Shown: piece by piece, positions 27,176 to 43,950 of the stretch | Position numbering within the stretch: the stretch's first letter is position 1 | Layout of the letters: every line of letters starts with the position of its first letter | The notes under the pieces: model-generated | Database searches by the model: none | The model's input: the letters and a program-made list of their open reading frames with translations, nothing else | What the model was told of the DNA's origin: nothing | DNA from: Croceitalea dokdonensis DOKDO 023 | GTDB lineage: Bacteria > Bacteroidota > Bacteroidia > Flavobacteriales > Flavobacteriaceae | Assembly (NCBI RefSeq): GCF_001306415.1 | Contig: NZ_LDJX01000001.1 | Location: 186,001 to 250,000, forward strand | Length of the DNA stretch: 64,000 bases | Reading direction: 5' to 3' | Made by a program: the position numbers and the translations under genes

Positions 27176-27739
27176 ATGAGTAAACAAAACACAAATCAAT
27201 TGGAAACGGCTATTTTGGCCAATGGGTGCTTTTGGTGCACGGAATCTGTATTTCAGCAACTTAAGGGGGTAAAAGAAGTAATCTCCGGGTATACTGGGGG
27301 TACCATCAAAAACCCATGCTATCGGGAAATTTGTACCGGTCGTACGGGTCACGCAGAGGCCATAAAAATTGTTTTTGATGCTACGGAAGTAAGTTTCGCA
27401 GAAATCTTGGAGGTATTTTTTGCCACTCACGATCCAACCACGCTCAACCGCCAGGGGAATGATGTTGGGACCCAGTATCGCAGTGGAATTTTTTACACCA
27501 ACGCTGAACAGGAAAAGATTGCCAAATCCTATATTCAACTATTGGATAAAGAAGGTATTTTTAGTGCGCCCATTGTAACCGAAGTAACCCCCGAAGCCCC
27601 GTTTTATAAGGCCGAGGAGGAGCATCAAAATTTTTATAACAACAACCCCAACCAACCGTATTGCCAATATATCATTAAACCAAAACTACATAAGATCAGG
27701 AAATACTTCCCCAACAAATTAAAAACCGTTAGTACATAA
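27176..27739 (+). CDS. msrA: Peptide-methionine (S)-S-oxide reductase
   Basis: 187 residues. The active-site motif GCFWCTE lies at 17-23 with nucleophile Cys18 and Cys21; downstream are SGYTGGTIKNPCYREICTGR, TGHAEA and DPTTLNRQGNDVGTQYRS, which contact the sulfoxide substrate. Repairs oxidised methionine using thioredoxin. No signal peptide, so cytoplasmic. No fused MsrB domain. It is 3 bases ahead of folE and shares its transcript. Confidence 0.97.
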   Translation: MSKQNTNQLETAILANGCFWCTESVFQQLKGVKEVISGYTGGTIKNPCYREICTGRTGHAEAIKIVFDATEVSFAEILEVFFATHDPTTLNRQGNDVGTQYRSGIFYTNAEQEKIAKSYIQLLDKEGIFSAPIVTEVTPEAPFYKAEEEHQNFYNNNPNQPYCQYIIKPKLHKIRKYFPNKLKTVST

Positions 27740-27742
27740 CAT

Positions 27743-28342
27743 ATGGCTCCATACCAAAATTTAGAAGAATATAATATCAGCATTACCAACGAGGTAAAGG
27801 ACAGATTTTCAAAAATCATAGATGAGATTGGCGAGGATGTGGAACGTGAAGGTTTGGTTAAAACCCCGGAACGTGCCGCCAAGGCCATGCTTTTTTTAAC
27901 ACAGGGTTATAAACAGGACGCAGCTGCCATCTTAAAAGGGGCCATGTTCAAGGAGGACTACGATGATATGGTGATTATAAAGGATATAGAACTCTATAGC
28001 CTCTGTGAGCACCATATGCTTCCCTTTTTTGGGAAGGCCCATGTAGCTTACATTCCTAATGGACATATTGTAGGGTTGAGCAAAATACCACGGATTGTTG
28101 ATGTTTTTGCAAGAAGATTGCAGGTACAGGAACGCTTGACCCATGATATTTTGGAATGTTTGAATGATACCTTAAAACCTAAAGGGGTTGCGGTGGTCAT
28201 TGAGGCGTCACATATGTGTATGATGATGCGTGGGGTGCAAAAACAAAACTCCGTGACCACAACATCAGGATTTAGGGGACAGTTTGAAAAAATTGAAACC
28301 CGTAACGAGTTTCTGAAGCTGATCAGTTCTACCCTTTCCTAA
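27743..28342 (+). CDS. folE: GTP cyclohydrolase I
   Basis: 199 residues. Converts GTP to dihydroneopterin triphosphate, the first step of folate synthesis. Zinc ligands are Cys88 and His91 ([20 protein letters not shown]) and Cys159 ([11 protein letters not shown]). The motif [20 protein letters not shown] is intact, so it should be a functional zinc-type enzyme. Second gene of an operon with msrA. Confidence 0.98.
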
Positions 28343-28691: not shown

Positions 28692-29768
28692 ATGATATTA
28701 ATCCATACGAACAGAAGGTTGAAAAGGGGACTACTAATTTTAGGTACTTTACTAGTTCATTGTTTACAAGCCCAAAATGATTTCAGACTTCGTTTTGAAA
28801 ACGCGGAAAGACCCTCGCGGCACAACCTTAAGATTGCTGTTTCAGATAGTTTTGGCAATGAAGGTTATTTGCCGGTTTCCATATTTAAAGGAAAAGTGGA
28901 TGGCCCGGTCTTTACCATAATATCCGGGGTACATGGCTTAGAATATGCCCCGATTATTGCAGTACAACAAATCATGCAAGAGGTGGATTTAGATTTGCTA
29001 TACGGTACGATAATTTTTATCCCCATAGCCAGTAGGGGGTCCTTTTATACCCGTACACCCTATAAGAACGGCGAAGATGGGGTAAATTTAAACGGGGCTT
29101 TCCCAGGAAATAAAGACGGTTCCATAACCCAAAAAACGGCCTATTTAATCACTAAAAATATCATTCCGGTAAGCGATGTATTTTTAGATATACACGGAGG
29201 TGATGCCCCTGAGGACCTATTGCCTTTTATTTGTTATTACAACAATAAAAACCGACCTGAACAAACCCAACTAGCAAAAGAACTGTCAGATGTTAGCGGA
29301 TTTGAATATGTGGTTTCTTATCCTTACACGATTACGGATGAAGAGCCCGCCAAATATGTTTTTAAGCAGGCTGTTCAAGATGGTAAAACAGGATTGAGTA
29401 TTGAAGCCGGTAAATTGGGGATTGTGCAAGAAGAAGCAGTTGCCTTGATAAAAAAGGGTGTTTTTAACATGCTTGGCAAAATGAAGATGTATCGTAAGGT
29501 TTCTGATTCAAACCACACAATTACCAGATTAAATGACCAGGTTTACATAAAATCAAAAACCAAGGGCATTTTCTATAGTTCCCTAAAAGCTGGTGATTCC
29601 GTTCAAAAGGAGCAGGTCGTTGGTTATACCACGGATGAGTTTGGTGCGGTATTGGAAGAATACAAGGCCTCAAAAACAGGTCTAATTTTATATATGCTTG
29701 CAACACCAACTATTAATAAAGGAGAAACGTTAATGTGTCTTAGTTCTTTTATCAGTACAAATGAATAA
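28692..29768 (+). CDS. Exported M14-fold deacylase (succinylglutamate desuccinylase/aspartoacylase family)
   Basis: 358 residues with signal peptide ending near LQAQ (28). Zinc ligands are His81 and Glu84 in SGVHGLEYAP and His168 in LDIHGGD; the catalytic Glu is probably E238 in GLSIEAGKLG. The C-terminal 80 residues (KSKTKGIFYSSLKAGDSVQK) form the beta domain common in this group. Export is unusual for aspartoacylase-like enzymes, so the substrate is likely an extracellular or periplasmic acylated amine; not predictable. Confidence 0.88.
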   Translation: MILIHTNRRLKRGLLILGTLLVHCLQAQNDFRLRFENAERPSRHNLKIAVSDSFGNEGYLPVSIFKGKVDGPVFTIISGVHGLEYAPIIAVQQIMQEVDLDLLYGTIIFIPIASRGSFYTRTPYKNGEDGVNLNGAFPGNKDGSITQKTAYLITKNIIPVSDVFLDIHGGDAPEDLLPFICYYNNKNRPEQTQLAKELSDVSGFEYVVSYPYTITDEEPAKYVFKQAVQDGKTGLSIEAGKLGIVQEEAVALIKKGVFNMLGKMKMYRKVSDSNHTITRLNDQVYIKSKTKGIFYSSLKAGDSVQKEQVVGYTTDEFGAVLEEYKASKTGLILYMLATPTINKGETLMCLSSFISTNE

Positions 29769-29794
29769 GAAGATCGTGGGTTTTCTCATAGAAA

Positions 29795-30205
29795 TTAATT
29801 AAGCGCACAACATTCTTCATCTTGGCATTGACAATACTTTGTATTGTATAAATGAAAGATAATCAATGAAATAGATGGAATGTAAATCACCTCCTCTTTT
29901 ATGTGAAACATGCCTATTTTTTCATTTAAAATAATTAGTGCAAGAGAAGCCCAGCTCAGCCACAATAAATAACTAATCCATTTTTTTGAAGTATGCCTAG
30001 ATGACAAGAACACGCTAAAGAAAGAAATCACTAAAAATAGTATATCTATAAATCCCCACCATTGTGGGGCCGAATGATGACCTTGAACATGCCCCGCGTG
30101 TGCAGCAAATAAAAAAGGTGTGCCTATACAATGCGCTAAGCATAAACCGCTAGCAAAACTTCCCCAGATATTTGGTTGATTTTTAAATCTCACAATTGCT
30201 CTCAT
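29795..30205 (-). CDS. MerC-family membrane protein
   Basis: 136 residues, four membrane helices. The first helix carries CLAHCIGTP, the paired-Cys motif of MerC metal transporters. It continues with AAHAGHVQGHHSAPQWWGFI, rich in His, and ends in the Cys cluster CQCQDEECC (a possible metal site in the cytoplasm). In Bacteroidota MerC-like proteins are often found next to zinc-regulated genes rather than mercury operons; no other mer gene is here. Last gene of the ABC/DUF5916 run, 7 bases after its neighbour. Confidence 0.88.
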   Translation of the reverse strand: MRAIVRFKNQPNIWGSFASGLCLAHCIGTPFLFAAHAGHVQGHHSAPQWWGFIDILFLVISFFSVFLSSRHTSKKWISYLLWLSWASLALIILNEKIGMFHIKEEVIYIPSISLIIFHLYNTKYCQCQDEECCALN

Positions 30206-30212
30206 ATCGTAA

Positions 30213-32423
30213 TTAAAATTGTTTTAGAAGTGTTATTTTACTTATCGTTTGTATGCTACGCTGCACCGGGTCAAACAATTCTGTTTGTGTATCGTTAAAT
30301 ACAAGGTAAATAAAGGAAAGGGGCATATATTCCCAACTAAAACGGACATTCCATCGCCCTTGTTGGTCAAAACTATTGTACTGATAAAAAGTGGATAACT
30401 GAACCCGGGGATTCAAGGCTAAACGTACACTTGCAGTATATAAATCGGTGTTTAGATCTTGAGAACGAATACCAACATTGTTAATGTTGTTGTGTTCATA
30501 ATCTATGTTCATGGCCACATGTGGCACGGGAGCATATCGTAGTCCGGTGGTCACCGAATTTCTCACCCCATTATAGAAATTACCAAAATCATATCGAATG
30601 GAACCTGAAAACTTTTTGGATCTATCGGAATTATAACGAAGGGTGTAGCGGGTGTAGCGGTAACGACCCTCTTCAATGTCTAGGCCCAAAGGGGCAAAAT
30701 CAAAATTGATATTTTGCCAAGTTGGGGTGAAGGAAGTTTCAATAAAACTGTTATCCTTAAACCATAAGAAAATGGGGAAGATGTATATGTTGGCCTGCTG
30801 AAAACGGCCAAAATCCTCAAAATCATGATAGTAATTCACAAAAACACCGGGATCCCAGCGGCGAATAAAAGGTAGATTTTTGGGACGTAATATGGCGTAA
30901 CCTCCGGGACTATGGTACATCACATCTTTTTGACTGACAAAGCCCATATCTGGACTATAATTTTTGCTGACAAAATTATTCAGGTATCCCAAATATGACT
31001 TGTTTGTAGTTTGCCCGGCAAAAAATTGGCCAGCATATCCGGTTGAATTGACTTCACTATCCCATGATGCAGAAAGCATGTAGGTGATAGACAATTCGCT
31101 CTTGGGCCGTATCAGGCCATCTACTGAGACGGTAGTGTTATCTTGACTTGTAACATTTAAATCTACCAAGGAATCATCTCTTCTGTAAGTGACCATAGCC
31201 CCAAAATTGTTTTCCCTTCCGTAGTTTTTCGTGTACCGAGCAACACCAAAAGTAGCACTGGGACTGTCACTGGTCTCACGTTGTCTAACCACTAATGCGG
31301 CAAGCGTTCGCTTTTCATCACGATCCGTATATCTTGCCCCTAAATCCAATGGGGCGGGTGCTGCATTAAAACTATTGGAAAGCCCAATGGTTCGGCTAAA
31401 GAATGGACGAATAAAGCTACTGTTGCTTCCTGCCCATATGCCAGAGTTTTCTAAAAAGAACTGCCTTCGTTCAGGGAAAAAGATATTGAACCGTTCCAAG
31501 TTGTTTACAGCTTGGTCAACGTCAGCCTGGGCAAAGTCTGTATTTATGGTCAAATCTAGAACAGCATTAGGATTGATGGCCCATTTTACATCAACCCCAA
31601 CTTTAGGATCATTGAGTTTATTGGTCAACGCGTTACCGGTCCTGTTTTCATCATACTGGTAGAGCGCGTAGGGTTCTATTCTAATATTGGCCGATGGCGG
31701 AGGCACTTCCAATCCGGTCAATTTGGCCGCATAGGTCATTCGGTTTTCTGAAAAGGACTGTGGTATGGCCGGAAAAACGGTCTTCTCATAGTCCTTTCTA
31801 GCCAATCTAAAAAAGGTGATACCCCATTCTACCGGAACTCCATCGATTGGATTATCATACCTAATAGATTTAAACGGAATGGCATACTCAGCATAATAGC
31901 CCTTATCAGTGCGTTGGGTACGAACACGCCAAAGGGCGTTCCAATCTTCATCACGATTGTTATCGTTAAAATTTTGGACGTCTTGCTGGTTACCATAAGG
32001 TGTGGTCTGAAAGGAAACCGCATATTGCTTGGTGTTCTGTGCATCAATCTGAATACCAAAGACATCATTTTCCAAGCCATTGAAATCCCTGCTCAAGTCT
32101 TGCATTCGCACCCCCTTTTTGCCCATGGAGTCTTTGGCAAAAACCCCAAAGTAAATGTTCTTGTCGTCGAAGAGCACACGAACTTCAGTTGGGTTTTTTA
32201 TACGTCCCCCTTGGTCAGGTTCCACCCTAAAAAAATCGGTAATAGGTTCGGCCATGTCCCAATCGGGTTCCTCCAATCTTCCATCAATAGTAATGGTACC
32301 ACTGGTTTTTGAGGCGTTTATTTTAACCGGAACTTCAGGAGGGGGGAAGTTGTCAGTTTCATCCTCCTGCGCCAGTCCTGCAAAACATCCCAAAACAAGA
32401 AAAACTAGTAGTGCATTTTTCAT
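30213..32423 (-). CDS. DUF5916 outer-membrane protein with N-terminal CBM9-like domain
   Basis: 736 residues, signal peptide ending near GLAQ. Residues 35-230 are a carbohydrate-binding-module-9-like beta sandwich (SGTITIDGRLEEPDWDMAEP, VRVLFDDKNIYFGVFAKD). The remaining 500 residues are DUF5916: repeated amphipathic strands (FRPFFSRTIGL, YKYD-like alternations) ending in SKITLLKQF, compatible with a beta-barrel C-terminus ending in Phe. Despite the module, sugar binding is not established for the family. It follows the second permease gene by 12 bases, and MerC follows it by 7. Confidence 0.9.
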   Translation of the reverse strand: MKNALLVFLVLGCFAGLAQEDETDNFPPPEVPVKINASKTSGTITIDGRLEEPDWDMAEPITDFFRVEPDQGGRIKNPTEVRVLFDDKNIYFGVFAKDSMGKKGVRMQDLSRDFNGLENDVFGIQIDAQNTKQYAVSFQTTPYGNQQDVQNFNDNNRDEDWNALWRVRTQRTDKGYYAEYAIPFKSIRYDNPIDGVPVEWGITFFRLARKDYEKTVFPAIPQSFSENRMTYAAKLTGLEVPPPSANIRIEPYALYQYDENRTGNALTNKLNDPKVGVDVKWAINPNAVLDLTINTDFAQADVDQAVNNLERFNIFFPERRQFFLENSGIWAGSNSSFIRPFFSRTIGLSNSFNAAPAPLDLGARYTDRDEKRTLAALVVRQRETSDSPSATFGVARYTKNYGRENNFGAMVTYRRDDSLVDLNVTSQDNTTVSVDGLIRPKSELSITYMLSASWDSEVNSTGYAGQFFAGQTTNKSYLGYLNNFVSKNYSPDMGFVSQKDVMYHSPGGYAILRPKNLPFIRRWDPGVFVNYYHDFEDFGRFQQANIYIFPIFLWFKDNSFIETSFTPTWQNINFDFAPLGLDIEEGRYRYTRYTLRYNSDRSKKFSGSIRYDFGNFYNGVRNSVTTGLRYAPVPHVAMNIDYEHNNINNVGIRSQDLNTDLYTASVRLALNPRVQLSTFYQYNSFDQQGRWNVRFSWEYMPLSFIYLVFNDTQTELFDPVQRSIQTISKITLLKQF

Positions 32424-32435
32424 CTTTATTTTATG

Positions 32436-33866
32436 CTATCCCTGATTCAAAATAATATTGCGACCGCGATTCTTTGACAGGACGAATCCCGTGGCAAATA
32501 ACCCTATCGACATTAGTAATATGGCTATTATGACCATCCAAGGGTTATTGCTTTTAGTTTGATAATCAAATGAGGGTAAGTCGCCGTAGTCCGCTTGGGT
32601 AAAGTCTTGATTATTGTACAAAAAGGGAATCAAATGCTCTCGCCATTTTTCAGCAAAAGCTACCACCTGCTTCCTGTAGTCTTCATAGTCGCTTTTTGCC
32701 GTTCCTGCCATTTTGTTCAAGGATTCTTGGCTAAGGACTGCTGGGGAAAGCCATTTGTATCTTGCTATCCAATTTTGTTGCTTTTGCAATTGTTCTTCAA
32801 AGGAATTTACCAAAGGAGCCAATTCTTCACGTATTAATTTTTGGGAGGCCATGTAGCGATGATAAAAGCCGCGAGCTTGGGTCGAATCATTTAGGGCATA
32901 TTCTGGATGGTCACGTAAAAAGTTATCCAATATTTCATCTTGCCTCTCGGTAACTTCAGCCTTTAAGCTACGCATTTCATTAATCATTAAATTGCGGGAG
33001 GGCATGGGATATATGGTATTTCCCAGTTGGTTCAAGACCGATGGTATCAAAAGCACAAAAGTCACCCACAGCCCCAAAAGCGCGACCGCATTTTTAGCAG
33101 AGCTACCTACCCAAAGATTGACAAGGAAGGCAATGGCAAACCAAAAAAGTGTATATGCTAAGATTAACCCCACTAGCCCCAAGAAAGTGGAGAACTCCGA
33201 TAAGAAATCCAACCTCAAAACAACAAAAACCAAAATTAAAGAAACGACGACCAAGAGCACTAACCAAAAAAACCGAAGTCCTAATTTCTGTAAGACCCAA
33301 CTTTGGATACGAATAGGTTGTGCGGCCAATAATCGTAGGGAACCGCTTTCCTTTTCAGCCGATAGCACATTGTAGGAAAAGGCTATAATCAGCAAAGGCA
33401 ACAAATAAATTACTACAAATGCCAAATCAAAACTTCCGAACAGCAATTGTACGGGACTGGTCATTTCGGTAAAGTTTAAATCAAAAGCGTCACTTCGCAC
33501 TGTGGGTTTTACAAAATGCGTGAAAAGGTCGGCCTGTCCCGTTGACAGGAATGCCATGGGCCGCGGCTCCATGGCTGCCACCCTTGGATGATAGGTTCCA
33601 ACGGCCATTGGGCTGGTTGGTATGGTCCATGGTGAGGCATTGACAGAAAGGCCCCGTTCCACGGAATCCAGTAACTTCAGCATCATTTCGTCATTTTCCT
33701 TGACCTCATTTTTTGCCGCAAGGATGTCGCTCTTCCTTTTTTCAACTTTCTGCAAACCATTATATGTAGCAAAACCAAAAATTAGCAATAAAACTAAGCT
33801 TAGGAGTTGGATCCATCGACTTCTGAGTAAAAGTTTTAGTTCGTATTTAAAATTATAAGAAAACAT
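32436..33866 (-). CDS. ABC-2 type permease (DUF3526-like), second copy
   Basis: 476 residues. A helix near 18-36 anchors the N-terminus, then a periplasmic loop (about 40-150), four to five helices (VVIYLLPLLIIAFSYNVLSA, FFWLVLLVVVSLILVFVVL, AYTLFWFAIAFLVNLWVG, VTFVLLIPSVLNQLG), a second large extracytoplasmic loop and a last helix near 445-463. This is the layout of DUF3526 ABC permeases. It shares the motif SAEKESGSLRLLAAQPI after the second helix with its neighbour's TKESEMGTLTLLKSQGI. Pairs with it and the ATPase. Confidence 0.88.
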   Translation of the reverse strand: MFSYNFKYELKLLLRSRWIQLLSLVLLLIFGFATYNGLQKVEKRKSDILAAKNEVKENDEMMLKLLDSVERGLSVNASPWTIPTSPMAVGTYHPRVAAMEPRPMAFLSTGQADLFTHFVKPTVRSDAFDLNFTEMTSPVQLLFGSFDLAFVVIYLLPLLIIAFSYNVLSAEKESGSLRLLAAQPIRIQSWVLQKLGLRFFWLVLLVVVSLILVFVVLRLDFLSEFSTFLGLVGLILAYTLFWFAIAFLVNLWVGSSAKNAVALLGLWVTFVLLIPSVLNQLGNTIYPMPSRNLMINEMRSLKAEVTERQDEILDNFLRDHPEYALNDSTQARGFYHRYMASQKLIREELAPLVNSFEEQLQKQQNWIARYKWLSPAVLSQESLNKMAGTAKSDYEDYRKQVVAFAEKWREHLIPFLYNNQDFTQADYGDLPSFDYQTKSNNPWMVIIAILLMSIGLFATGFVLSKNRGRNIILNQG

Positions 33867-33868
33867 GG

Positions 33869-35275
33869 CTAAATGATTTTAGTGGTGAAGAACATTAATC
33901 CAAAAGAAGCGAAAAGCCAGATGCCAAGGACCATCATGTTTGAGGAGTTGCGATGAAGAACGGTATCCAATTCTGGCGGTTCGTATGCAAAGGCAGGCAG
34001 TTGTTGCCAAAAGTTGGCACTGGCCTTATAGCCCCTTTCTCCATATCTGGTATTCTGCGCTGTATTGTCATTTAAAAACTTTTGGGTCGCGATGCGATAG
34101 GTCTCCGCTGCGTCTGCAAAATCCCAATGGGTATCATAATCCGTTGACGCTATCGCCATACTTAGGAATCGTGTGGGCAAGTACGGCGAAATGGCCGCGA
34201 GGTTTCTGTAAACCTTGGACTGGTTTGCATATTGTTCTTTGAGGTAATTGTAATGCTTAAAATAAACTTCGGCCTCGTGCTCTTCACCTTTTTGCATGCG
34301 ATAGGCACTGAAATTAAAGGGCAATTGATGCAGGCTATCCACACCATACTCTTGTAATACTTTCTTTTCCAATAGTTTGGATTCCTTGCTCCAAGGGTCG
34401 TGCCCATCCAACCCCTCTTTTTTGTCTTTGAGCACATTGGCAGCGAATTCTTGTCGCGTAGGGTAGGGGTGTTTACTTTCTGCAATATTACTGGCTGCTT
34501 TAGGCGCTGCCAAACAGGCCAGAATCCAAACGCACAATGAAAGCACCAGCGAAATCCCGGATTTTTTGACCAAGGATGAAATCAGGAGAACAATATTGAT
34601 AAAAATGATGTAGTACCCTATGTAGACCAAGAACATGACTCCTAGGGAAGTCCAGTTGAAGACCCCAAAATCATTAAGATTGTTTAGCACTATTCCGGCA
34701 ATCAAAAACAATACCGCAGTTTTTACAAAAATGGGAAAGAATAGGGCGCTCCATTTCCCCATCATCCATGAAAAAGAAGAAATACCTTGACTTTTGAGTA
34801 GGGTTAAGGTACCCATTTCGCTTTCTTTGGTAAAACTGTTGTACCCCAATAAAATGATGAGTAATGGAATAATGAATAAGAGGATAAAATCTGGAGTCAA
34901 ATCACCAAATCTGGCCAGTCCAGTCTGATCTGCCGCGGCACTAAATTGGGCCTCGTTGCGTTTGTGGGCCTCCAAAAAGATGGAAGTGCCTGCGTATTTA
35001 TCTACTCCTTGATCCACCAAAGACAACGGATATTTTGGCTTAAATGCATAAGTGCCATAATGAGCGGCAGAATGCGGATTTTTTTCACCTTGGTTGTCCC
35101 AAACTTCCCGCTCTGCAGTTTTTGCCATTGCGTATTGCTCGTTGATGTTTTGATATTGTTTGGCACTTATCCAAACGGCTACCCCAAGAAGCAAAAGGAC
35201 AATGAACAATGATATTCTTACCCGTCCTTCCCGGAAAAGCTCTTTAGTTTCCTTGATAAACGTTTTTGAAATCAT
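33869..35275 (-). CDS. ABC-2 type permease (DUF3526-like), first copy
   Basis: 468 residues with the same plan as the following permease: N-terminal helix (SLFIVLLLLGVAVWISAKQY), large loop with SLVDQGVDKYAGTSIFLEAH, helices DFILLFIIPLLIILLGYNSF, FVKTAVLFLIAGIVLNNL and VYIGYYIIFINIVLLISSLV, another loop with many charged residues, and a terminal helix. The start overlaps the ATPase stop by 4 bases and the stop is 2 bases from the next gene, so ATPase and both permeases are translationally coupled, implying a heterodimeric transporter. Confidence 0.88.
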   Translation of the reverse strand: MISKTFIKETKELFREGRVRISLFIVLLLLGVAVWISAKQYQNINEQYAMAKTAEREVWDNQGEKNPHSAAHYGTYAFKPKYPLSLVDQGVDKYAGTSIFLEAHKRNEAQFSAAADQTGLARFGDLTPDFILLFIIPLLIILLGYNSFTKESEMGTLTLLKSQGISSFSWMMGKWSALFFPIFVKTAVLFLIAGIVLNNLNDFGVFNWTSLGVMFLVYIGYYIIFINIVLLISSLVKKSGISLVLSLCVWILACLAAPKAASNIAESKHPYPTRQEFAANVLKDKKEGLDGHDPWSKESKLLEKKVLQEYGVDSLHQLPFNFSAYRMQKGEEHEAEVYFKHYNYLKEQYANQSKVYRNLAAISPYLPTRFLSMAIASTDYDTHWDFADAAETYRIATQKFLNDNTAQNTRYGERGYKASANFWQQLPAFAYEPPELDTVLHRNSSNMMVLGIWLFASFGLMFFTTKII

Positions 35276-35988
35276 AGCGTTTCCTCTTTATAGGTCATCG
35301 TATCTAAATAGAACATCTCCAATTCATTGAGCGTAATGTTGTCCACAATGAATTCCTGCTTCAATCGCCCATCTTTCATGATGCCGACGTGGGTGCCAAT
35401 TTCCTTTGCCCTAAAAAGGTCATGGGTTGCCATTAAGGTGGCCACCCCTTTATCCCGAAGTTTTTGTAAAAGCTGTCCAAATTCATTGCTGGCCTTGGGG
35501 TCCAATCCTGAAGTGGGTTCATCCAACAAGAGGACTTTGGCGTCTTTTGCCAACGCAATGGCAATGCCCACCTTTTGGCGCATCCCTTTGGAAAAGGCTG
35601 AAATACGTTTGTCAAAGGCTTCGGACTGTAGACCCGCTTCTTCAAGAAAATCCTTTAATATGGGGGTTGATAGCTTTTTACCTGAAATCCCAGAGAAATA
35701 GTCCAAGTTCTCCACGGCCGTCAAACTTGGGTATAACATTAAATTTTCTGGGATATAAGCTAAAAGTTGTTTGGTTGCCTTTGGGTTTTTATGAACGTCC
35801 AATTGATTAATGGAAGCATTGCCAGAGGTTGGTTCCGTAAAACCTAGAAGTAAATTTATAGTTGTGGACTTACCAGCACCATTGGCACCCAAAAGGCAAT
35901 AGATTTCACCTTCGCCCACCTTTAGGGTTAGCTGGTCAAGGGCAATCTGGTCGCCGTACTTTTTTGTGAGATTGTTTGTGATGATCAT
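35272..35988 (-). CDS. ABC transporter ATP-binding protein
   Basis: 238 residues. Walker A is LLGANGAGKST near 33-43, Q-loop PENLMLYPSLTAVENL, signature FSKGMRQKVGIA (divergent from LSGGQ but usual for CcmA/NosF-type ATPases), Walker B VLLLDEPTSGLD and H-loop ATHD. With the two DUF3526-like permeases it should form an exporter or a lipid/protein-extruding complex. First gene of this tight five-gene run; no clear -7 box upstream. Confidence 0.92.
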   Translation of the reverse strand: MIITNNLTKKYGDQIALDQLTLKVGEGEIYCLLGANGAGKSTTINLLLGFTEPTSGNASINQLDVHKNPKATKQLLAYIPENLMLYPSLTAVENLDYFSGISGKKLSTPILKDFLEEAGLQSEAFDKRISAFSKGMRQKVGIAIALAKDAKVLLLDEPTSGLDPKASNEFGQLLQKLRDKGVATLMATHDLFRAKEIGTHVGIMKDGRLKQEFIVDNITLNELEMFYLDTMTYKEETL

Positions 35989-36131
35989 TAATGTAAATTT
36001 TGGTCATTTTAAATTGCTATTTTTTAATTCGTAATGAATCGCATAAAATAATAGAGTGATGACCTTGGCCAACAGTTTGGGCACCGTTGACAATTACTCA
36101 CAGAGGTTGAGTTTAAAGAGGTCATTATCCA

Positions 36132-36464
36132 CTACAATAAAGTAGGGGGAGGTTTGTTGTGAAAATAATCGGAGAGTTGTATTTTTTGGTTCGGTCCACG
36201 GTATAAAAGAATCGATTGGGGACTGTCGCAATCCACTGGCTCTTTAAGACTAAGAGCGTCGTCCGTGGAAATTGGCTGCAAGGGCGTACCTTGCTTGGTG
36301 TGGTTTACAAAGTCGCAAAGCTCACAATGTGGTAACTCGTCATCTGATAAAAGATGGGAAAGTGTATGGATATTCACTACCTGCAACAGTAGGAAGGCTG
36401 CTAGGAAAAAGAACGCCAAGTTATGGTTTCTTCTAGGTGACATTTCCATTGAATTTAGGGGCAA
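36132..36464 (-). CDS. Small single-helix membrane protein with His/Cys motif, paralogue of the one at 39616-39918
   Basis: 110 residues (in-frame starts also at 36449 and 36443). After a basic N-terminus there is one membrane helix (LAFFFLAAFLLLQVVNI), then HTLSHLLSDDELPHCELCDF, with three His and a CxxC. The C-terminus is YFHNKPPPTLL. The 100-residue protein at 39616-39918 has the same order of features: helix, SHL-acidic-HCExC, and a PPP-hydrophobic end. Likely anchored in the inner membrane with a metal-binding periplasmic stub. Function unknown; family not recognised with certainty. Confidence 0.75.
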   Translation of the reverse strand: MPLNSMEMSPRRNHNLAFFFLAAFLLLQVVNIHTLSHLLSDDELPHCELCDFVNHTKQGTPLQPISTDDALSLKEPVDCDSPQSILLYRGPNQKIQLSDYFHNKPPPTLL

Positions 36465-36528
36465 TTCTTAAAATTTTTATCTTATTGGTAGTTGGATGCA
36501 TTGAAAGAAAGGTATCGGTAGTAGGGTC

Positions 36529-36555
36529 GTCGAACACGGTTTGTCCGTGTCCGAC
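36529..36555. other. Intergenic hairpin between the lipoprotein and the second His/Cys protein
   Basis: Eleven positions pair around the 5-base loop TTTGT, with one A/C mismatch (arms GTCGAACACGG and CCGTGTCCGAC). There is no T run on either side, so it is more likely an mRNA stability or processing element than a terminator. Confidence 0.45.
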
Positions 36556-36592
36556 AATCCAACAACCTTATGCAATTTATTGAATGACCAAT

Positions 36593-37144
36593 TTATTGTA
36601 CCGTTAAATTGAAGGTCTGTGCAATATCCGTTTCACCACCGGCATCGGCCAAGGTACCATCGTTTGGCTTTTTAGGCTCATGACGCAATGTAATGGTCAA
36701 GGAGGCGGCACCAGCTGTGGCCGTTTCCAAACCAAAAGTAATGCCCAGTGGGTTACCGTCCCCATCAAAATCACCATAGGTCACACCGTTGATGGAACCC
36801 GTAGTCTGAAAAAAGAATTGGTGTTCATCATCTTCCTCCGCTACTTCCTCGGTAATGTTTTCTGGCGGTGTGTCGGTTTCATCCAACAATAGAATGGCAC
36901 CTCCATAGGTAGTGTTGCCTGCCAATGGACCAGACACGCTCACGGTTGGTGCGGCCGGGCCATCACCATCCAAATCCTGCGTCTGTAAGGTTACGGTATC
37001 CCCACCACCTACGGGAATAAGGGTAACGGTCATGGTGGTAATCGTTTCCTCTTCGTTCACAACCTCTGGGTCATCGTCATCCGAGCAAGACACAAATAAC
37101 AGACTGGCCGTAGCCAACATACTTAAAAATTTAATAGTTCTCAT
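36593..37144 (-). CDS. Lipoprotein paired with the TonB-dependent receptor
   Basis: 183 residues with signal peptide and lipobox LLFVSC (Cys20). The mature part begins with acidic linker DDDDPEVVNEEETITTMTVT, then a beta-rich domain (VSVSGPLAGNTTYGGAILLL) and contains EEVAEEDDEHQFFFQ, a strongly acidic stretch with His. It closes with TLRHEPKKPNDG and AGGETDIAQTFNLTV. I recall near-identical architecture in lipoproteins encoded next to TonB-dependent receptors in flavobacteria. It starts 20 bases after the receptor stop, so it is probably its surface partner; ligand unknown. Confidence 0.82.
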   Translation of the reverse strand: MRTIKFLSMLATASLLFVSCSDDDDPEVVNEEETITTMTVTLIPVGGGDTVTLQTQDLDGDGPAAPTVSVSGPLAGNTTYGGAILLLDETDTPPENITEEVAEEDDEHQFFFQTTGSINGVTYGDFDGDGNPLGITFGLETATAGAASLTITLRHEPKKPNDGTLADAGGETDIAQTFNLTVQ

Positions 37145-37164
37145 AACATTGAATTTAATTGAAA

Positions 37165-39564
37165 TTAATAATTGAGTTTTAATTGTAAAATGATATTTCT
37201 TCCTAGGTCATCAGCAAAAAAACGTTGCCTATTCAGGTATTCCCGGTAGGTTGTATTCAATGCATTATTGATGGTTAAACTGGTGGTTAACTTTAGTTTT
37301 TTGTGCAGCTCAAAAACTGCCCTGGCGTTTAGCCCCATGACATGGTATGCATCTGGCGGGGTGTTTACTTCCAGCAGTACCTCTTCTTGCTGCTGCGGTG
37401 AGAATACCATGATGTTTTCTGGAAATTCGTTTTGACGAAAAACATATTCGCTCCGCAATGAAAGCTCAAAATTGTTCCATTTGGGTTGGGAGTAAGTAAG
37501 CTGATTCTCCATTCTCGCCGATGGCATATTGACCAGTGGAATATCCAAACCGCTGTCCCTGCCTTTTACAATGGAAAATTGATGGTTACTGGTAAGATGG
37601 TTGGAATAGGTGTAGTAACCCGATGCATCCAGTCCTATTAAACTGGCATTGGTTTGGCGGTACGCCCAAACGGGAAACGCACCACGAATGGAAAATTCAA
37701 CACCAGTGGGCTCCAACAGTATAAAGTCTTGGATACGGTTGATGTATGGTTCCACCAAAAAGCCACCTTTTTTAAAGTCATGTTGATAGGAGGCAGATAG
37801 TTTGTGCGATGTTTCATTCCCAATACGGAGATCACCAAGTTCAATCCGTGCCGCAGAGTGGTGCAAACCGTCGCTAAAAAGCTCGGCAGGATTTGGCGCA
37901 CGTTGGGAAAGCGAATAATTCAACCTAAAGCTACGTTCATTCGTAGGTTGGTACCGCACTCCTGTTGATGCTGAAAAGTTATGGTAATCCAATACGGGAT
38001 TCACCAATAATTGGGTTCCAAGATTATCAATCACCAAATCTTCAAACTCACTATCATAACCGCGTTCTTCCCAGCGAGAGCTACGATAGAATTTTTTAGC
38101 ATCAATTTGTGTAAAATCGTATCGGAGGCCGCCATCTGCTTTCCAAGTATCGGATAGTTCATATTCCCCAATGGCAAATACCCCTAAATCATATTTATCG
38201 TAGTCCGGAATCAATCTACGTACCCCGGTGTCAGGATTGGCAAAATTATTCTGATACCTACCCATCATCCCAAAATGCCCAGAAAATCTCTTTGGAGCGT
38301 CATAGACAAAATCGGCCAACAGGCTATGGGTGGTTAATTGCAGATCCAGGGCTGCACGATCACCACGCCCACCGCGGCGCACGTCAAATTCCAAACGGTT
38401 GTTTTGTTGAAAATCATATTGGAGGTTTAATTTTCCAAGACCTTCAAATCGTTTGTAAAAACTGCCCTTGGCCAAATGGTGGGTCACTTGTTGTTTAGGG
38501 TTTTGGATATCGTAGGTAAATGAATTGATCACATTTGGACTACCGCTGTTGATACTTCTGATCAAATCGTCCACATTACCAATATGTGAGGCCCTTAAAA
38601 TCCCTATTTCTGCCTCGTAATAGCTATACTGGGCGTCCCATCCCCAAGTAAATTCCTTTTTTCCCAGATGAAGTGTTCCGGCAATTTCATTCATTCCCGT
38701 ATTGGACAGCACATAATCCGGAGCTTCTTGGTCTCCCAGTTGCTTGTAACTGCCCTGTGCCTTTAAAAAGAGTCCGTTTTTAAATACCTTGGTGATTTCG
38801 GTATTGGCGTTGCCGCCTTGGCCATTGGTCATTCCGGTAAACATGGTCTGTCCAAAGAGGGTATCCTTAGCTGCCAGTAGTTGGGGTTTCATAACAATGA
38901 CGCCACCTATGGCATCACCACCGTATTGCAGGGCGGCAGCTCCTTTGATCACAGCAATCCTATCTACGGAATTGATGTCTACATTAGGGGCATGTTCATC
39001 TCCCCATTCCATATCCTGCATGCGAACCCCATTGTTCAATATTAGAATCCTGCTACCACTTAAGCCATGGATAATGGGCTTTACTATGGTAGCTCCCGTA
39101 TTTAATGTAGAAACACCGTTTATGGTAGCTAGGGCATCTGCTAAGGTGCCGCTGCTGTATTCTTCCAAAGTTTGCTGTCGCAATGCCAATTCTTGGGCAG
39201 AATTGGTGGTTTTGGCCACTTTCCCAACAACATCCACCTCACTAAGCTCTTCTAAATGGTGCTCTAGTTTTATGGTTAGGTTTTTATAGGTGTCTAAACG
39301 GACGGAAATCATGGTATCTGAACATTCTGGATGCGAAATGGCTAAATCGTAGGTTCCTGGGCAAAGGTTGGTTATCTCAAAACTACCTTGGGTGTCTGAG
39401 TACACGGTAATGGACTTGTCCAATACTTCTATTGTGGCATTTCCAAGGGGTGTTTTGCTATGGTAATCCGATATCTTGCCTTCAATTTTAGCATCGCAAA
39501 CGGACTGCCCTTTGGCAATAACAACAACAAGAAAACAAAACAAAATGAAGAACAAACTTCTCAT
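37165..39564 (-). CDS. TonB-dependent outer-membrane receptor, metal-type candidate
   Basis: 799 residues with signal peptide (cleavage near KGQ). Residues 25-110 form a carboxypeptidase-regulatory-like domain (AKIEGKISDYHSKTPLGNAT), then a plug with GLSGSRILILNNGVRMQDME and EHAPNVDINSVDRIAVIKG, then a 22-strand barrel ending in IILQLKLNY (terminal aromatic). No SusD-type gene follows, which argues against a glycan system. The plug wording is like that of receptors in zinc/copper uptake loci; this is an impression, not proof. The upstream small His/Cys gene is 51 bases away. Confidence 0.9.
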   Translation of the reverse strand: MRSLFFILFCFLVVVIAKGQSVCDAKIEGKISDYHSKTPLGNATIEVLDKSITVYSDTQGSFEITNLCPGTYDLAISHPECSDTMISVRLDTYKNLTIKLEHHLEELSEVDVVGKVAKTTNSAQELALRQQTLEEYSSGTLADALATINGVSTLNTGATIVKPIIHGLSGSRILILNNGVRMQDMEWGDEHAPNVDINSVDRIAVIKGAAALQYGGDAIGGVIVMKPQLLAAKDTLFGQTMFTGMTNGQGGNANTEITKVFKNGLFLKAQGSYKQLGDQEAPDYVLSNTGMNEIAGTLHLGKKEFTWGWDAQYSYYEAEIGILRASHIGNVDDLIRSINSGSPNVINSFTYDIQNPKQQVTHHLAKGSFYKRFEGLGKLNLQYDFQQNNRLEFDVRRGGRGDRAALDLQLTTHSLLADFVYDAPKRFSGHFGMMGRYQNNFANPDTGVRRLIPDYDKYDLGVFAIGEYELSDTWKADGGLRYDFTQIDAKKFYRSSRWEERGYDSEFEDLVIDNLGTQLLVNPVLDYHNFSASTGVRYQPTNERSFRLNYSLSQRAPNPAELFSDGLHHSAARIELGDLRIGNETSHKLSASYQHDFKKGGFLVEPYINRIQDFILLEPTGVEFSIRGAFPVWAYRQTNASLIGLDASGYYTYSNHLTSNHQFSIVKGRDSGLDIPLVNMPSARMENQLTYSQPKWNNFELSLRSEYVFRQNEFPENIMVFSPQQQEEVLLEVNTPPDAYHVMGLNARAVFELHKKLKLTTSLTINNALNTTYREYLNRQRFFADDLGRNIILQLKLNY

Positions 39565-39615
39565 TTGTTGTGAAAAACATTAAAGTGTACAAAGAATTAC
39601 TAGGGTGCTGGATAA

Positions 39616-39918
39616 CTAAACCAGAAAAGGAGGGGGTCTGGAGCAGATAGTATGATCCAGCTCGCTCACAAAAATGTCAAAAACGTAAGATGGAATTGTA
39701 CCTGTTACGGAGAGAACAGGGGGTTGTTGAATAGCTATCTCCCCTTGAAGAAGTGCAGGTGTGTGCTGGTTTTCAATGGCCAGTTCACAGCCTTCACAAT
39801 GCTCAATGGGATTCTCGTCCACTTCATCCAAATGGGAATATATATGGAAGTTTGATACTTTAAATAGTATCAAAACCAATAGAAGCATTGCAGAAATAAG
39901 ATTAATGGTCTGTTTCAT
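39616..39918 (-). CDS. Small single-helix membrane protein with His/Cys motif, first in the receptor operon
   Basis: 100 residues. One membrane helix (INLISAMLLLVLILFKVSNF) is followed by HIYSHLDEVDENPIEHCEGC, with three His, many acidic residues and CxxC. The C-terminus is TICSRPPPFLV. It is the paralogue of the protein at 36132-36464, with conserved SHL, HCExC and PPP elements and similar length. It lies directly upstream of the TonB-dependent receptor on the same strand. A periplasmic metal-binding helper is my inference. Confidence 0.78.
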   Translation of the reverse strand: MKQTINLISAMLLLVLILFKVSNFHIYSHLDEVDENPIEHCEGCELAIENQHTPALLQGEIAIQQPPVLSVTGTIPSYVFDIFVSELDHTICSRPPPFLV

Positions 39919-39978
39919 CCTAAGAACTGCGAATTTAGCGTTTTCCTGGTTCTAAATTTAGTTAACAAAATCATAATT

Positions 39979-40299
39979 CTAAGAAACCCAGCGACCTAGA
40001 CCCATGCGTTTGAGCATTTTTTTTTCAAAATTCCAAAAAAACTTAAACTGTCCAAAAAGCCAACCAAAACCCACTAAAAGCACTTGGTAAATAGGAAAGA
40101 TGATAACAAGCCTTAAAAACCCATACAAAAACCCACCCCACCAGAAATCCGGGGAGAAAACCTCCCTTTTGAGTCCAATAAGGTCCAGAAAGGGCCTGGC
40201 TACAAAAAGGGATGATGATCCTGTGATTCCAAAAACAATGAATATAATCAGTATCTGAAAATTGGAGGTAATGCCCCAACGTTCTTTTAATTTTTCCAT
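39979..40299 (-). CDS. Conserved membrane protein (DUF6787-like)
   Basis: 106 residues. N-terminus KLKERWGITSNFQILIIFIV contains the first helix; then DLIGLKREVFSPDFWWGGFL and a second helix (FLRLVIIFPIYQVLLVGFGWL), ending with basic FEKKMLKRMGLGR. Known to me as a frequently conserved flavobacterial protein near the serine-biosynthesis cluster; no function assigned. A TATTTTTG -7 box lies at 40316-40323 on the same strand, 16 bp upstream. Confidence 0.82.
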   Translation of the reverse strand: MEKLKERWGITSNFQILIIFIVFGITGSSSLFVARPFLDLIGLKREVFSPDFWWGGFLYGFLRLVIIFPIYQVLLVGFGWLFGQFKFFWNFEKKMLKRMGLGRWVS

Positions 40300-40315
40300 A
40301 AGGTTAAATTCTGGG

Positions 40316-40323
40316 CAAAAATA
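40316..40323 (-). promoter_or_regulatory. -7 promoter box of the DUF6787-like gene
   Basis: Minus-strand TATTTTTG matching TAnnTTTG, 16 bp upstream of the ATG at 40299. No -33 TTTG at the right distance. Confidence 0.4.
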
Positions 40324-40328
40324 AGGCT

Positions 40329-40823
40329 TTAAATCCTAGGAAGAAAAGGGCCAAGCCTTTGGTTGTAGCGTCGTTGGAAATAAATAAAATAATTGTAAAG
40401 CTGATAGTTTACATCATAGCCATAGTCAATAGTTGGGTCGTAATCTATCTGCAGCTCATACAATAATGGTGGGAATTGGTCTGGCTGTAATACGCGCCTG
40501 TTCCACTCCAGAACATAGATATAATTGCGGGATTCCATAAAACTCTGGGAATAATACCCCTTAGGCCTGGCAATGCCCTGTAGCCAAGCATTAAACCCAA
40601 TATCTATGATAATGATATCATATTCCGTACTGTCCGCTTCCATTTCTATGTTTGCCTTATTAGGGTCGTCCAACTGCTCAAAGAGTTGGGTTTCCTCTTC
40701 AGAAAGAACTACGGGCAGGTTACCTTGGGTGGCTTTCGTGAGGTTTTGCTTTGTGGTACAGGAAAGGACAAAAAGTAGGAAACATGCTATAGGCGTCAGC
40801 GATTTTAATCGGGAATAATCCAT
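40329..40823 (-). CDS. Lipoprotein (DUF6146-like)
   Basis: 164 residues from MDYSRLKSLTPIACFLLFVL with a lipobox ending at Cys. The mature protein has acidic linker and the compact domain STEYDIIIIDIGFNAWLQGI, then YYSQSFMESRNYIYVLEWNR and a Tyr-rich tail (YGYDVNYQLYNYFIYFQRRY). The start at 40823 is preferred to an ATG at 40859 because the longer form would begin inside the terminator hairpin of the upstream gene. Conserved in flavobacteria, function unknown. Confidence 0.8.
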   Translation of the reverse strand: MDYSRLKSLTPIACFLLFVLSCTTKQNLTKATQGNLPVVLSEEETQLFEQLDDPNKANIEMEADSTEYDIIIIDIGFNAWLQGIARPKGYYSQSFMESRNYIYVLEWNRRVLQPDQFPPLLYELQIDYDPTIDYGYDVNYQLYNYFIYFQRRYNQRLGPFLPRI

Positions 40824-40842
40824 TAGCAGAAAAATAAATAAA

Positions 40843-40869
40843 AAGCCGCTTAGATACACTAAACGGCTT
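40843..40869 (-). terminator. Terminator of the DUF937 gene
   Basis: Minus-strand reading: AAGCCGTTTAG, loop TGTAT, CTAAGCGGCTT (11 pairs, one mismatch), then TTTATTTATTTTT. It separates the DUF937 gene from the lipoprotein gene and supports the start at 40823 for the latter. Confidence 0.85.
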
Positions 40870-40892
40870 GTTAATTTTAACGGTTGATTTTT

Positions 40893-41534
40893 TTATTTCC
40901 CAAACAAACCGCCCAAAAGGCCACCTAGTCCGCCTTTCTTTTGTCCACCGCTGTTCAATACCATCCCGGCCAAATCGTCCATAATACTGCCATCACCATC
41001 AGAATCCAAAAAGCTTTCAATCAGTGATTGTTGTTTATTGGCCGCACTACCACCGCCCATGAGACCGCCCAACAAACCGTTTAAGCCTTCTGGACTGTTT
41101 ACGTTTTGCTGTCTTGTCTGTTTGCCTAAAATTCCCAAAAGGATAGGGGCGGCCACTTTTAAAATCTGACCTATGGAACCGGCATCGATACCCGTTTTGC
41201 TACTTAATGCGTTTTCTACTTGAGGCTGCTTGGCCCCCAATACGTGCCCTAAAATACCTGCGCCATCATCCATGACGCTTTGGTCCACACCGCCTCCAAA
41301 AAGACCACCAAGGTTGTCCAAGATGCTTCCATCATGTTTGGAGGACAAAGCGTTCATTAAACCTTGTGCGCCACCGGGCGTTGTGGCATTTTTTTTCATC
41401 GCTCCCATTAATAAGGGCATGGCCATTGCCAATACGTCCGCTGTTTTGTTCTCTGGTTGTCCCGTCTGGCCAGATACTCCGCTGATAAGTTGTTTGCCCA
41501 TTGGGCTATTTAATAAATCCAATAATCCTGACAT
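40893..41534 (-). CDS. DUF937 domain protein
   Basis: 213 residues, Gly-, Leu- and Gln-rich, no signal peptide. Repeating helical pieces (MGKQLISGVSGQTGQPENKT, VLAMAMPLLMGAMKKNA, IGQILKVAAPILLGILGKQ) match DUF937, known from YidB-like proteins. The tail LDSDGDGSIMDDLAG is an EF-hand-like DxDxDG calcium loop, and the end is GGLGGLLGGLFGK. Homologues were crystallised as helical bundles; function unknown. Confidence 0.9.
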   Translation of the reverse strand: MSGLLDLLNSPMGKQLISGVSGQTGQPENKTADVLAMAMPLLMGAMKKNATTPGGAQGLMNALSSKHDGSILDNLGGLFGGGVDQSVMDDGAGILGHVLGAKQPQVENALSSKTGIDAGSIGQILKVAAPILLGILGKQTRQQNVNSPEGLNGLLGGLMGGGSAANKQQSLIESFLDSDGDGSIMDDLAGMVLNSGGQKKGGLGGLLGGLFGK

Positions 41535-41603
41535 GTTTTTAGTGTTTAAATTTTAGTGTGGTAAAATACAAAAAGAAGTTGACTGCCAAGGATTCTTAAC
41601 AAG

Positions 41604-42554
41604 CTATTTTAATAGGCTTATAATTTGATGCGCCAATTCCAGACCAATTCTATCCTGGGCCTCTTTGGTAGCCGCCCCAATGTGTGGTGTCAAGGATATA
41701 TTGGGATGCATTAATATTCTTATCTCTGGTTTTGGTTCCGATTCGTACACATCAAGACCTGCAAAAGCTACTTTGCCAGATTCCATGGCATCTATTAAAG
41801 CTACCTCGTCCAAAATGCCCCCACGCGCCGCATTGATAATCCCCACACCATCCTTCATCTCTGCAAATTCTTTTTTACCAATGAGGTATCCCTTTTGCGC
41901 CGGGACATGCAACGTAATAAAATCCGAACTTTCCAATACCTCTGAAAAGGAGCTTGCGGTTAAAGTTACCATGATTCTTTGCCCATCAAAAATTTCCAGT
42001 GTCAATTGTTTTGATGTTATCCGGTGGTCCGTAAAAATAACCTTCATCCCAATTCCAATGGCAATGTTGGCAACAGCTTGCCCAATACGGCCAAAACCGA
42101 TGATTCCCAACGTCTTGCCTCGCAATTCCATCCCCGAGGCATATGCTTTTTTAAGTTGATTGAACCTAGAATCACCTTCCAAGGGCATATTTCTGTTGGC
42201 ATCATGTAAAAACCGTGCACCGCTGAACAAATGTGCAAAAACAAGTTCTGCCACTGACGCAGATGACGCCGCTGGCGTATTGATGACCTTAATGCCCTTT
42301 AAGGTAGCGTGGTCCGCGGCAATATTGTCCATGCCAACACCAGCCCTACCTATAAGTTGAAGACCTGGGCAGGAGTCTATGATTTTCTTATCTACCTGTG
42401 TAGCACCCCGCACCAAAAGTATATCTATTTCATTTTCATTGATATACGTGTCTAATTGTTCGTTGGCCACTTTTACGGTAACAACATCAAAACCGGCTTC
42501 TTGCAAGATAGTTTTACCTTTTGCTGAAATCCCGTCGTTTGCTAGTATTTTCAT
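41604..42554 (-). CDS. serA: D-3-phosphoglycerate dehydrogenase, short form
   Basis: 316 residues, first step of serine biosynthesis. The NAD-binding turn GIIGFGRIGQAVANIA, RAGVGMDNI at 90-98, the catalytic Arg in INAARGGILDE and His in LTPHIGAATKEAQDR are all visible. No ACT domain, so no serine feedback via that module. It sits 18 bases after serC, together giving phosphoserine from 3-phosphoglycerate; no serB in the window. Confidence 0.95.
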   Translation of the reverse strand: MKILANDGISAKGKTILQEAGFDVVTVKVANEQLDTYINENEIDILLVRGATQVDKKIIDSCPGLQLIGRAGVGMDNIAADHATLKGIKVINTPAASSASVAELVFAHLFSGARFLHDANRNMPLEGDSRFNQLKKAYASGMELRGKTLGIIGFGRIGQAVANIAIGIGMKVIFTDHRITSKQLTLEIFDGQRIMVTLTASSFSEVLESSDFITLHVPAQKGYLIGKKEFAEMKDGVGIINAARGGILDEVALIDAMESGKVAFAGLDVYESEPKPEIRILMHPNISLTPHIGAATKEAQDRIGLELAHQIISLLK

Positions 42555-42572
42555 ATAAACTTTTCTTGGTTG

Positions 42573-43637: not shown

Positions 43638-43950
43638 GCGTTAAAGGTTTTAAGTATAAAAGGGGTAAAGGTCAGAAAATATTAATGAAGTTAAAAGAAA
43701 GCCACTGCATTCTAAACTTTAATTTTTTTGGTTGATGTTGATGCTACCCTAAATCCTGCGTTAAATCCTAGCGTATTTTTAAAAATTTTGTCAATTCAGG
43801 CGAAAATTACCGATGTAAAAAGTAATGTATTTAAGCCTAATCAAAATTTTAGTTCAATAAACCGTTTGCTAACGCCAAAGAATTAGACGTGCCATGTTGT
43901 TGTGTAGGCAGCTGGTGATGCACAATGGGTTCACAATAGATGAATTAACA
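43638..43950. other. Intergenic stretch without a gene
   Basis: Between serC and the acyl-CoA reductase stop. AT-rich, no reading frame of note, no tRNA-like fold and no clean terminator. It must hold the serC promoter, though no TAnnTTTG box is evident on the minus strand near 43637. Confidence 0.5.

Follow-up and report, generated by a model that had tools for sequence, protein, structure and literature searches.

In Caulobacter crescentus, the TonB-dependent receptor gene znuK and the znuGHI genes for an ABC-2 ATPase and two permeases (together CC1517-CC1520) are bound and repressed by Zur; cells starved of zinc require znuK to grow, and znuGHI has been described as a putative high-affinity uptake system (PMC4176598). 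We analyzed a stretch of 64,000 nucleotides (the window) from the 3.88-Mb genome of Croceitalea dokdonensis DOKDO 023 (contig NZ_LDJX01000001.1, positions 186001-250000), in which nine consecutive open reading frames (ORFs), every one on the minus strand, span positions 29795-39918. An initial annotation held that no described pathway resembles this locus. The Caulobacter genes do: both sets place a TonB receptor gene next to genes for an ABC-2 ATPase and a pair of ABC-2 permeases, which in the window belong to DUF3526. The window's system is a variant of the znuK-znuGHI kind, and it probably works like ZnuK-ZnuGHI and is probably homologous to it. It is a real, conserved system, and comparison with related genomes makes it likely that it is an envelope system for zinc scavenging under zinc scarcity.

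The two systems also differ. In the window, a lipoprotein and the second of two small His/Cys proteins (HC1 and HC2) stand between the receptor and the ATPase. The available text of the Caulobacter report lists neither small His/Cys proteins nor a lipoprotein, DUF5916, or MerC among the members; that system has a Zur box, whereas the window has none; and its receptor and ABC genes look divergent, the two listed Zur sites being reverse complements.

NosDFY is an ABC machine that works with envelope partners on a metal, and NosY acts in copper delivery. The DUF3526 permease carries the NosY fold, the eleven best PDB matches in Foldseek all being NosY with none at E ≤ 0.001. Unlike NosDFY, the locus encodes two diverged permeases with long extramembrane stretches, one of which carries conserved histidines; neither a NosD nor a NosL family occurs among the nine proteins, and the genes are linked to TonB and the zinc regulon. 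In Pseudomonas aeruginosa, PA4063-PA4066 has been described as a Zur-controlled MacB-type exporter and assigned to metallophore export (PMC11481552). The likeness lies in Zur control of an exporter-type ABC, and MacB/FtsX-like units recur beside the relatives' loci (clusters 7 and 24), but the fold there is MacB rather than NosY/DUF3526. ZnuABC shares the proposed role in zinc supply but is ruled out as the identity of this transporter, since the ABC-3 permease family (PF00950) has no match among the nine proteins or in the window's genome. Our literature search found no paper naming DUF3526.

Conservation of the gene neighborhood

The core of the locus is an old, shared system of which the window holds one version, since the neighborhood is conserved where DUF3526 occurs. 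DUF3526 itself is not universal: 13 of the 59 near relatives examined have it, as do 45/296 genomes across the order (window genome counted). Co-occurrence of the gene families, proposed as a check with the initial annotation, was borne out for this core in the best 80 of at least 586 loci by tblastn to the window's permease 1 (one peptide pattern used; 64 groups at 85% identity with the window included). The order ATPase-permease-permease occurs in 77/80 loci, allowing one intervening gene, with a small His/Cys protein directly or one gene before the ATPase in 47, DUF5916 directly behind the permeases in 26, and a MerC-type gene in 18. The lipoprotein was found in 20 loci, 19 times within 4 kb of the permeases. 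Longer arrangements are rarer: HC-TonB-lipoprotein-ABC in 10/80 and small protein-ABC-DUF5916-MerC in 2/80 (Flagellimonas allohymeniacidonis and Aquimarina algicola). Gene families here are single-linkage BLAST clusters; TonB-type clusters were named by matches to the window's TonB protein in 13/37 and 31/41 members, the FolE cluster via L036 and L083, which both cluster with the window frame at 27743, and recurrent neighbors by Pfam on one representative each.

Gene order was also read in a set of 55 relative loci, from fewer genomes than loci (L029 and L030 overlap, and L031 and L032 are fragments of one genome); 54 were used, L035 being left out with no permease called. An adjacent permease pair is present in 51 of these, small protein-ATPase-TonB-permease-permease in 22, and TonB-permease-permease-ATPase in 8; 37 loci have a TonB-type gene at most three genes from the pair, and 24 have one between ATPase and permeases. 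Twelve plasmid records carry relatives of the module. Eight plasmid loci were inspected. In six, a TonB gene stands at most two genes away from the ATPase/DUF3526 block (Aureibacter, Comamonas, Spirosoma, Blastomonas, Hymenobacter, and Eleftheria, preceded in Eleftheria by a DUF2946 gene); the Methylocystis locus has no TonB annotated and the Novosphingobium plasmid is without annotation.

Several variants were seen in passing. A genome of the window's own genus (L029, L030) carries a DUF3526 ABC of the window type in tandem with one of a TonB-in-operon type; MerC separates the two and AstE follows. Tandem Peripla_BP_2 family genes adjoin the DUF3526 ABC in Cyclobacteriaceae metagenome-assembled genomes (L169, L172, and L174); the family occurs in 4/80 loci, and its protein could bind the same substrate as the ABC. 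The ATPase frame at L036:6364-8304 is 646 amino acids (aa) long instead of the usual 231-238, possibly a fusion or a start-call artifact, and a small-genome relative has a His-rich lipoprotein-like frame beside TonB and a Fur-like gene (L041:12226-12579, by eye).

Zinc-regulon neighbors and a candidate operator in relatives

DUF1826 and FolE belong to Zur regulons; in the 80-locus set, DUF1826 neighbors the system in 6 loci and FolE in 12, some FolE copies being placed as in the window. Other neighbors are a Fur-family regulator (17 loci), a COG0523/CobW GTPase (18), and a MacB/FtsX-like permease (8). Zur regulons commonly include COG0523 proteins (PMC6103462). At least one of regulator, COG0523, and DUF1826 is present in 33/80 loci, and most copies lie within 4 kb of the permeases (regulator, 14/17; COG0523, 15/18; DUF1826, 5/6).

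The dyad TGCAAC-N3-GTTGCA was first seen by eye in intergenic DNA of relatives. Its sites were afterwards compared in number with those of control dyads, in a set that largely overlaps the loci of discovery (the 55-locus set) and in a second set (the 80 loci plus the window). With up to one mismatch, the 55-locus set holds 27 sites in 21 loci, and 21 of these sites (19 loci) lie no more than 300 nucleotides (nt) upstream of a gene that leads to the permeases; the ten control dyads together yielded 12 sites, none so placed. The second set holds 57 sites, 13 of them within called frames, compared to 0-5 for each control. In Croceivirga loci L138 and L161, close to the window in architecture (L161 without HC2), an exact copy precedes the lipoprotein gene; in Aquimarina algicola (L144), a one-mismatch copy precedes small protein-ABC-DUF5916-MerC-FolE. 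The dyad is exact in the Aureibacter and Spirosoma plasmids (Cytophagales); the proteobacterial plasmid loci have none with up to one mismatch.

Exact copies are rare. Among 20 chosen genomes, 10 carry one or two each, 14 sites overall. Four stand at DUF3526 loci, where the L104 site is not upstream of the permeases. The ten away from such loci comprise five at MerC-type genes (MerC-FolE-COG0523, Zur-like/MerC, MerC/MacB-like, or MerC genes, named by eye), three within coding frames, and two before other genes. Across the order, 69/296 genomes have an exact dyad, more commonly those with DUF3526 (21/45 versus 48/251; p 1.8e-4, not corrected for ancestry). We regard TGCAAC-N3-GTTGCA as a candidate Zur box and the module in relatives as part of a predicted Zur regulon. 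Literature searches on Zur in Bacteroidetes and Flavobacterium gave no paper whose title and abstract describe such a regulon; a Riemerella study treats ZntR (PMC11960050).

One exact dyad (L222:4341-7193) lies between a MerC-like gene and genes for an ABC ATPase, a MacB-like permease, and a third small protein, an arrangement resembling PA4064-PA4066 by eye. Two other searches were dropped: an automatic palindrome search on upstream DNA locked onto sequence before the permease genes where the TonB gene ends, and a second dyad, TATGTT-N6-AACATA, seen before HC1 in Flagellimonas-type relatives, has 14 sites in the window's genome versus 23 for the control.

Layout and encoded proteins

All nine ORFs were re-found exactly at the coordinates of the initial annotation, and its names for the receptor, ATPase, permeases, DUF5916, and MerC are each backed by a Pfam match above the cut-off (Table 1). 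Six of the nine proteins are named in this way, with bit scores of 90.1 and 65.1 for the TonB barrel and plug, 91.3 and 100.8 for the permeases, 67.2 for DUF5916 plus 40.9 for CBM9_1 in the same protein, and 67.9 for MerC (cut-off, 27.6); HC1, HC2, and the lipoprotein match no Pfam family above its cut-off. A gap of 60 bases lies upstream of HC1, followed by gaps of 51 (HC1-TonB), 20 (TonB-lipoprotein), 128 (lipoprotein-HC2), 143 (HC2-ATPase), -4 (ATPase-permease 1), 2 (permease 1-permease 2), 12 (permease 2-DUF5916), and 7 (DUF5916-MerC). HC2 starts at a TTG, and an internal ATG near 36449 is equally possible.

Table 1. Features of the locus in window coordinates
Feature	Position	Strand	Basis or remark
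HC1, small His/Cys protein	39616-39918	-	First gene of receptor half
TonB-dependent receptor	37165-39564	-	Pfam
Lipoprotein	36593-37144	-	N-terminus and invariant Cys20
Hairpin, 13 pairs	36527-36557	-	Intergenic, lipoprotein to HC2; may mark a transcript boundary
HC2, second small His/Cys protein	36132-36464	-	First gene of pump half
ABC ATPase	35272-35988	-	ABC_tran, 106.2 bits
DUF3526 permease 1	33869-35275	-	Pfam; NosY fold
DUF3526 permease 2	32436-33866	-	Pfam
CBM9_1 + DUF5916 protein	30213-32423	-	Pfam
MerC-family membrane protein, Cys-rich tail	29795-30205	-	Pfam
AstE/AspA-type hydrolase	28692-29768	+	Pfam; convergent neighbor, possible member

The initial annotation called HC1 and HC2 His/Cys membrane proteins. 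The His/Cys motifs are present, while "membrane" is uncertain: each protein has 100-110 aa and a single N-terminal hydrophobic stretch (by eye). The two share HxxxH and CxxC motifs as well as a run of prolines at the C-terminus (RPPP in HC1). In an alignment with 23 small proteins of relatives (n = 25), the first CxxC cysteine is invariant, the second and two prolines reach at least 90%, and both HxxxH histidines are majority residues. Neither HC1 nor HC2 matches DUF2946 (PF11162) at E up to 1; 2/25 aligned members do. The lipoprotein has invariant His108, His155, and Cys20 (n = 21). The TonB receptor comprises a carboxypeptidase-regulatory-like N domain, plug, and barrel, and its best solved relatives by sequence are 9gbc and then ZnuD 4rdr; it scores below the cut-off for the NCBIfam ZnuD, copper, and heme receptor models. 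Permease 1 has four conserved histidines (His68, His72, His104, and His341), all outside membrane segments and, by analogy with NosY, inferred to lie on the periplasmic side; no histidine of permease 2 reaches 90% conservation (13 sequences). One alignment, A3, includes one non-family member (L122). The DUF5916 protein is probably an outer-membrane barrel.

Other identities fell away on family scores. SusC/SusD glycan uptake was rejected: no SusD family was found among the nine proteins, as the initial annotation had observed, and the SusC signature reaches 12.7 bits against a cut-off of 46.2. MerC is alone of MerA, MerR, MerT, MerP, and MerC among the nine proteins scanned, which does not fit mer mercury resistance, and GldA (155.6 of 402.6 bits needed) and GldF (26 of 288.5) rule out the Gld gliding transporter.

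Outside the cluster, an AstE-type gene follows the permease pair in 5/54 relative loci and the Hymenobacter plasmid has an M14 metallopeptidase behind its DUF3526 pair, so the AstE/AspA-type hydrolase may belong to the system. Frames resembling msrA and folE stand next to the cluster at 27176-28342; some relatives have FolE together with MerC downstream of a TGCAAC dyad. Upstream of HC1 (39979-45012) are two short genes and serA-like and serC-like frames (names by eye), which recur at the same place in Flagellimonas/Croceivirga-type relatives, where the receptor half thus keeps a fixed place.

Weighing zinc and its alternatives

The hairpin (fold z -3.7; pattern unique in the genome at up to three mismatches) has no T run after it and is missing from the predicted terminator list. 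Because of this hairpin, and because the halves are found apart in relatives, the data suggest two units, HC1-TonB-lipoprotein for the receptor and HC2-ATPase-permeases-DUF5916-MerC for the pump. The single nine-gene unit of the initial annotation was not upheld, as 0/80 loci hold TonB to MerC in the window's order. That two unrelated operons, a TonB receptor unit and an ABC-DUF5916 unit, stand side by side by chance is nonetheless improbable: the hairpin separates them and only 35/80 loci have a TonB-family gene, but the frequent placement of TonB-type genes near or within the ABC block in the 54 loci and on six plasmids speaks against coincidence.

Zinc, which the initial annotation left open when it proposed a metal, is favored because of the neighboring genes and the dyad in relatives, and we consider it quite probable. 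The points that weigh against this reading come largely from the window's own genome, where zinc control is not established, because the promoters are without the dyad and there is a single Fur-family protein, between relA-like and purA-like frames. The search for a Zur box, suggested along with the initial annotation, was negative at the window's promoters, and the genome has no exact TGCAAC dyad. The sole two-mismatch site in the window (28108-28122) is within the folE frame, outside the cluster, and the 23 sites with up to three mismatches do not exceed chance (29 expected). Even among relatives, 36/55 loci have no dyad at the module under the placement rule used. A ZIP transporter is encoded in the window's genome, so zinc could be imported without this ABC, and MerC may reflect a different thiophilic metal. 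Among 14 control genomes, Caulobacter alone has DUF3526, and it alone is missing from the 13 with ABC-3; its DUF3526 match is at genome level, and the assignment to znuH/znuI is putative. The Caulobacter-type operator TGTTAT-N3-ATAACA has no site in 29000-40400 at up to two mismatches and six scattered sites at three. Since relatives of close architecture have the dyad and the window does not, zinc control seems to have been lost or replaced in the window's clade.

These gaps leave room for another metal (copper, iron, or mercury-like), with the relatives' zinc links not carrying over to the window's clade. No Zur-like regulator was found in the window's genome, MerC is present, NosY serves copper, and the copper and heme receptor models match the TonB protein, if below cut-off; in sister genera, however, this gene order goes together with zinc-regulon families and with the dyad, and we judge another metal quite unlikely. 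Two narrower mechanisms fall within the zinc reading. The ABC could be a true inner-membrane zinc importer replacing ZnuABC, as the description of znuGHI, the missing PF00950 match, and the scarcity of strong ABC-3 matches (by our own cut-off) in DUF3526 genomes suggest (3/45 versus 54/251 others; Fisher p 0.022, not corrected for ancestry). Its fold, that of exporter and mechanotransmission ABC proteins, the lack of a periplasmic binding protein among the nine despite Peripla_BP_2 in some loci, and the ZIP transporter make this rather unlikely. Alternatively, the pump might export or recycle a zinc-binding metallophore that the TonB receptor retakes in loaded form. The exporter-type ABC-2/NosY fold, the TonB-type gene between ATPase and permeases in many relatives, the Pseudomonas exporter as described in PMC11481552, and the AstE-type hydrolase behind some permease pairs agree with export, but no biosynthesis gene was recognized among the nine genes or the scanned recurrent neighbor clusters, most other neighbors being outside that scan, and this version is unlikely.

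Zinc scavenging remains the reading we prefer, and since import, relay, and metallophore export were not told apart, its mechanism is left as alternatives. The TonB receptor would bring zinc, free or chelated, across the outer membrane; the small His/Cys proteins and lipoprotein, with their conserved His and Cys residues, would be likely periplasmic zinc carriers; and the ATPase and two DUF3526 permeases would form a NosY-type ABC machine in which ATP may drive loading, release, or transport of a zinc species, with MerC and DUF5916 as accessories. Of this, the permease fold and the conserved residues are observed. More tentatively, the DUF3526 ABC could be to zinc what NosDFY is to copper, working by mechanotransmission without ever carrying zinc through the inner membrane: ATP would pull zinc off the receptor-side carriers (His/Cys proteins and lipoprotein) via a histidine site in permease 1 and pass it along within the periplasm, giving a receptor-to-inner-membrane relay from Bacteroidota to Proteobacteria. 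This is possible, although we hold it with less than even confidence.

To our knowledge, the route of zinc from outer membrane to cytoplasm in Bacteroidota without ZnuABC has been little studied. The analysis defines a widespread gene set, proposes an operator for its regulator, and points to four histidines as targets for mutation, and it suggests that the NosY fold may serve zinc besides copper.

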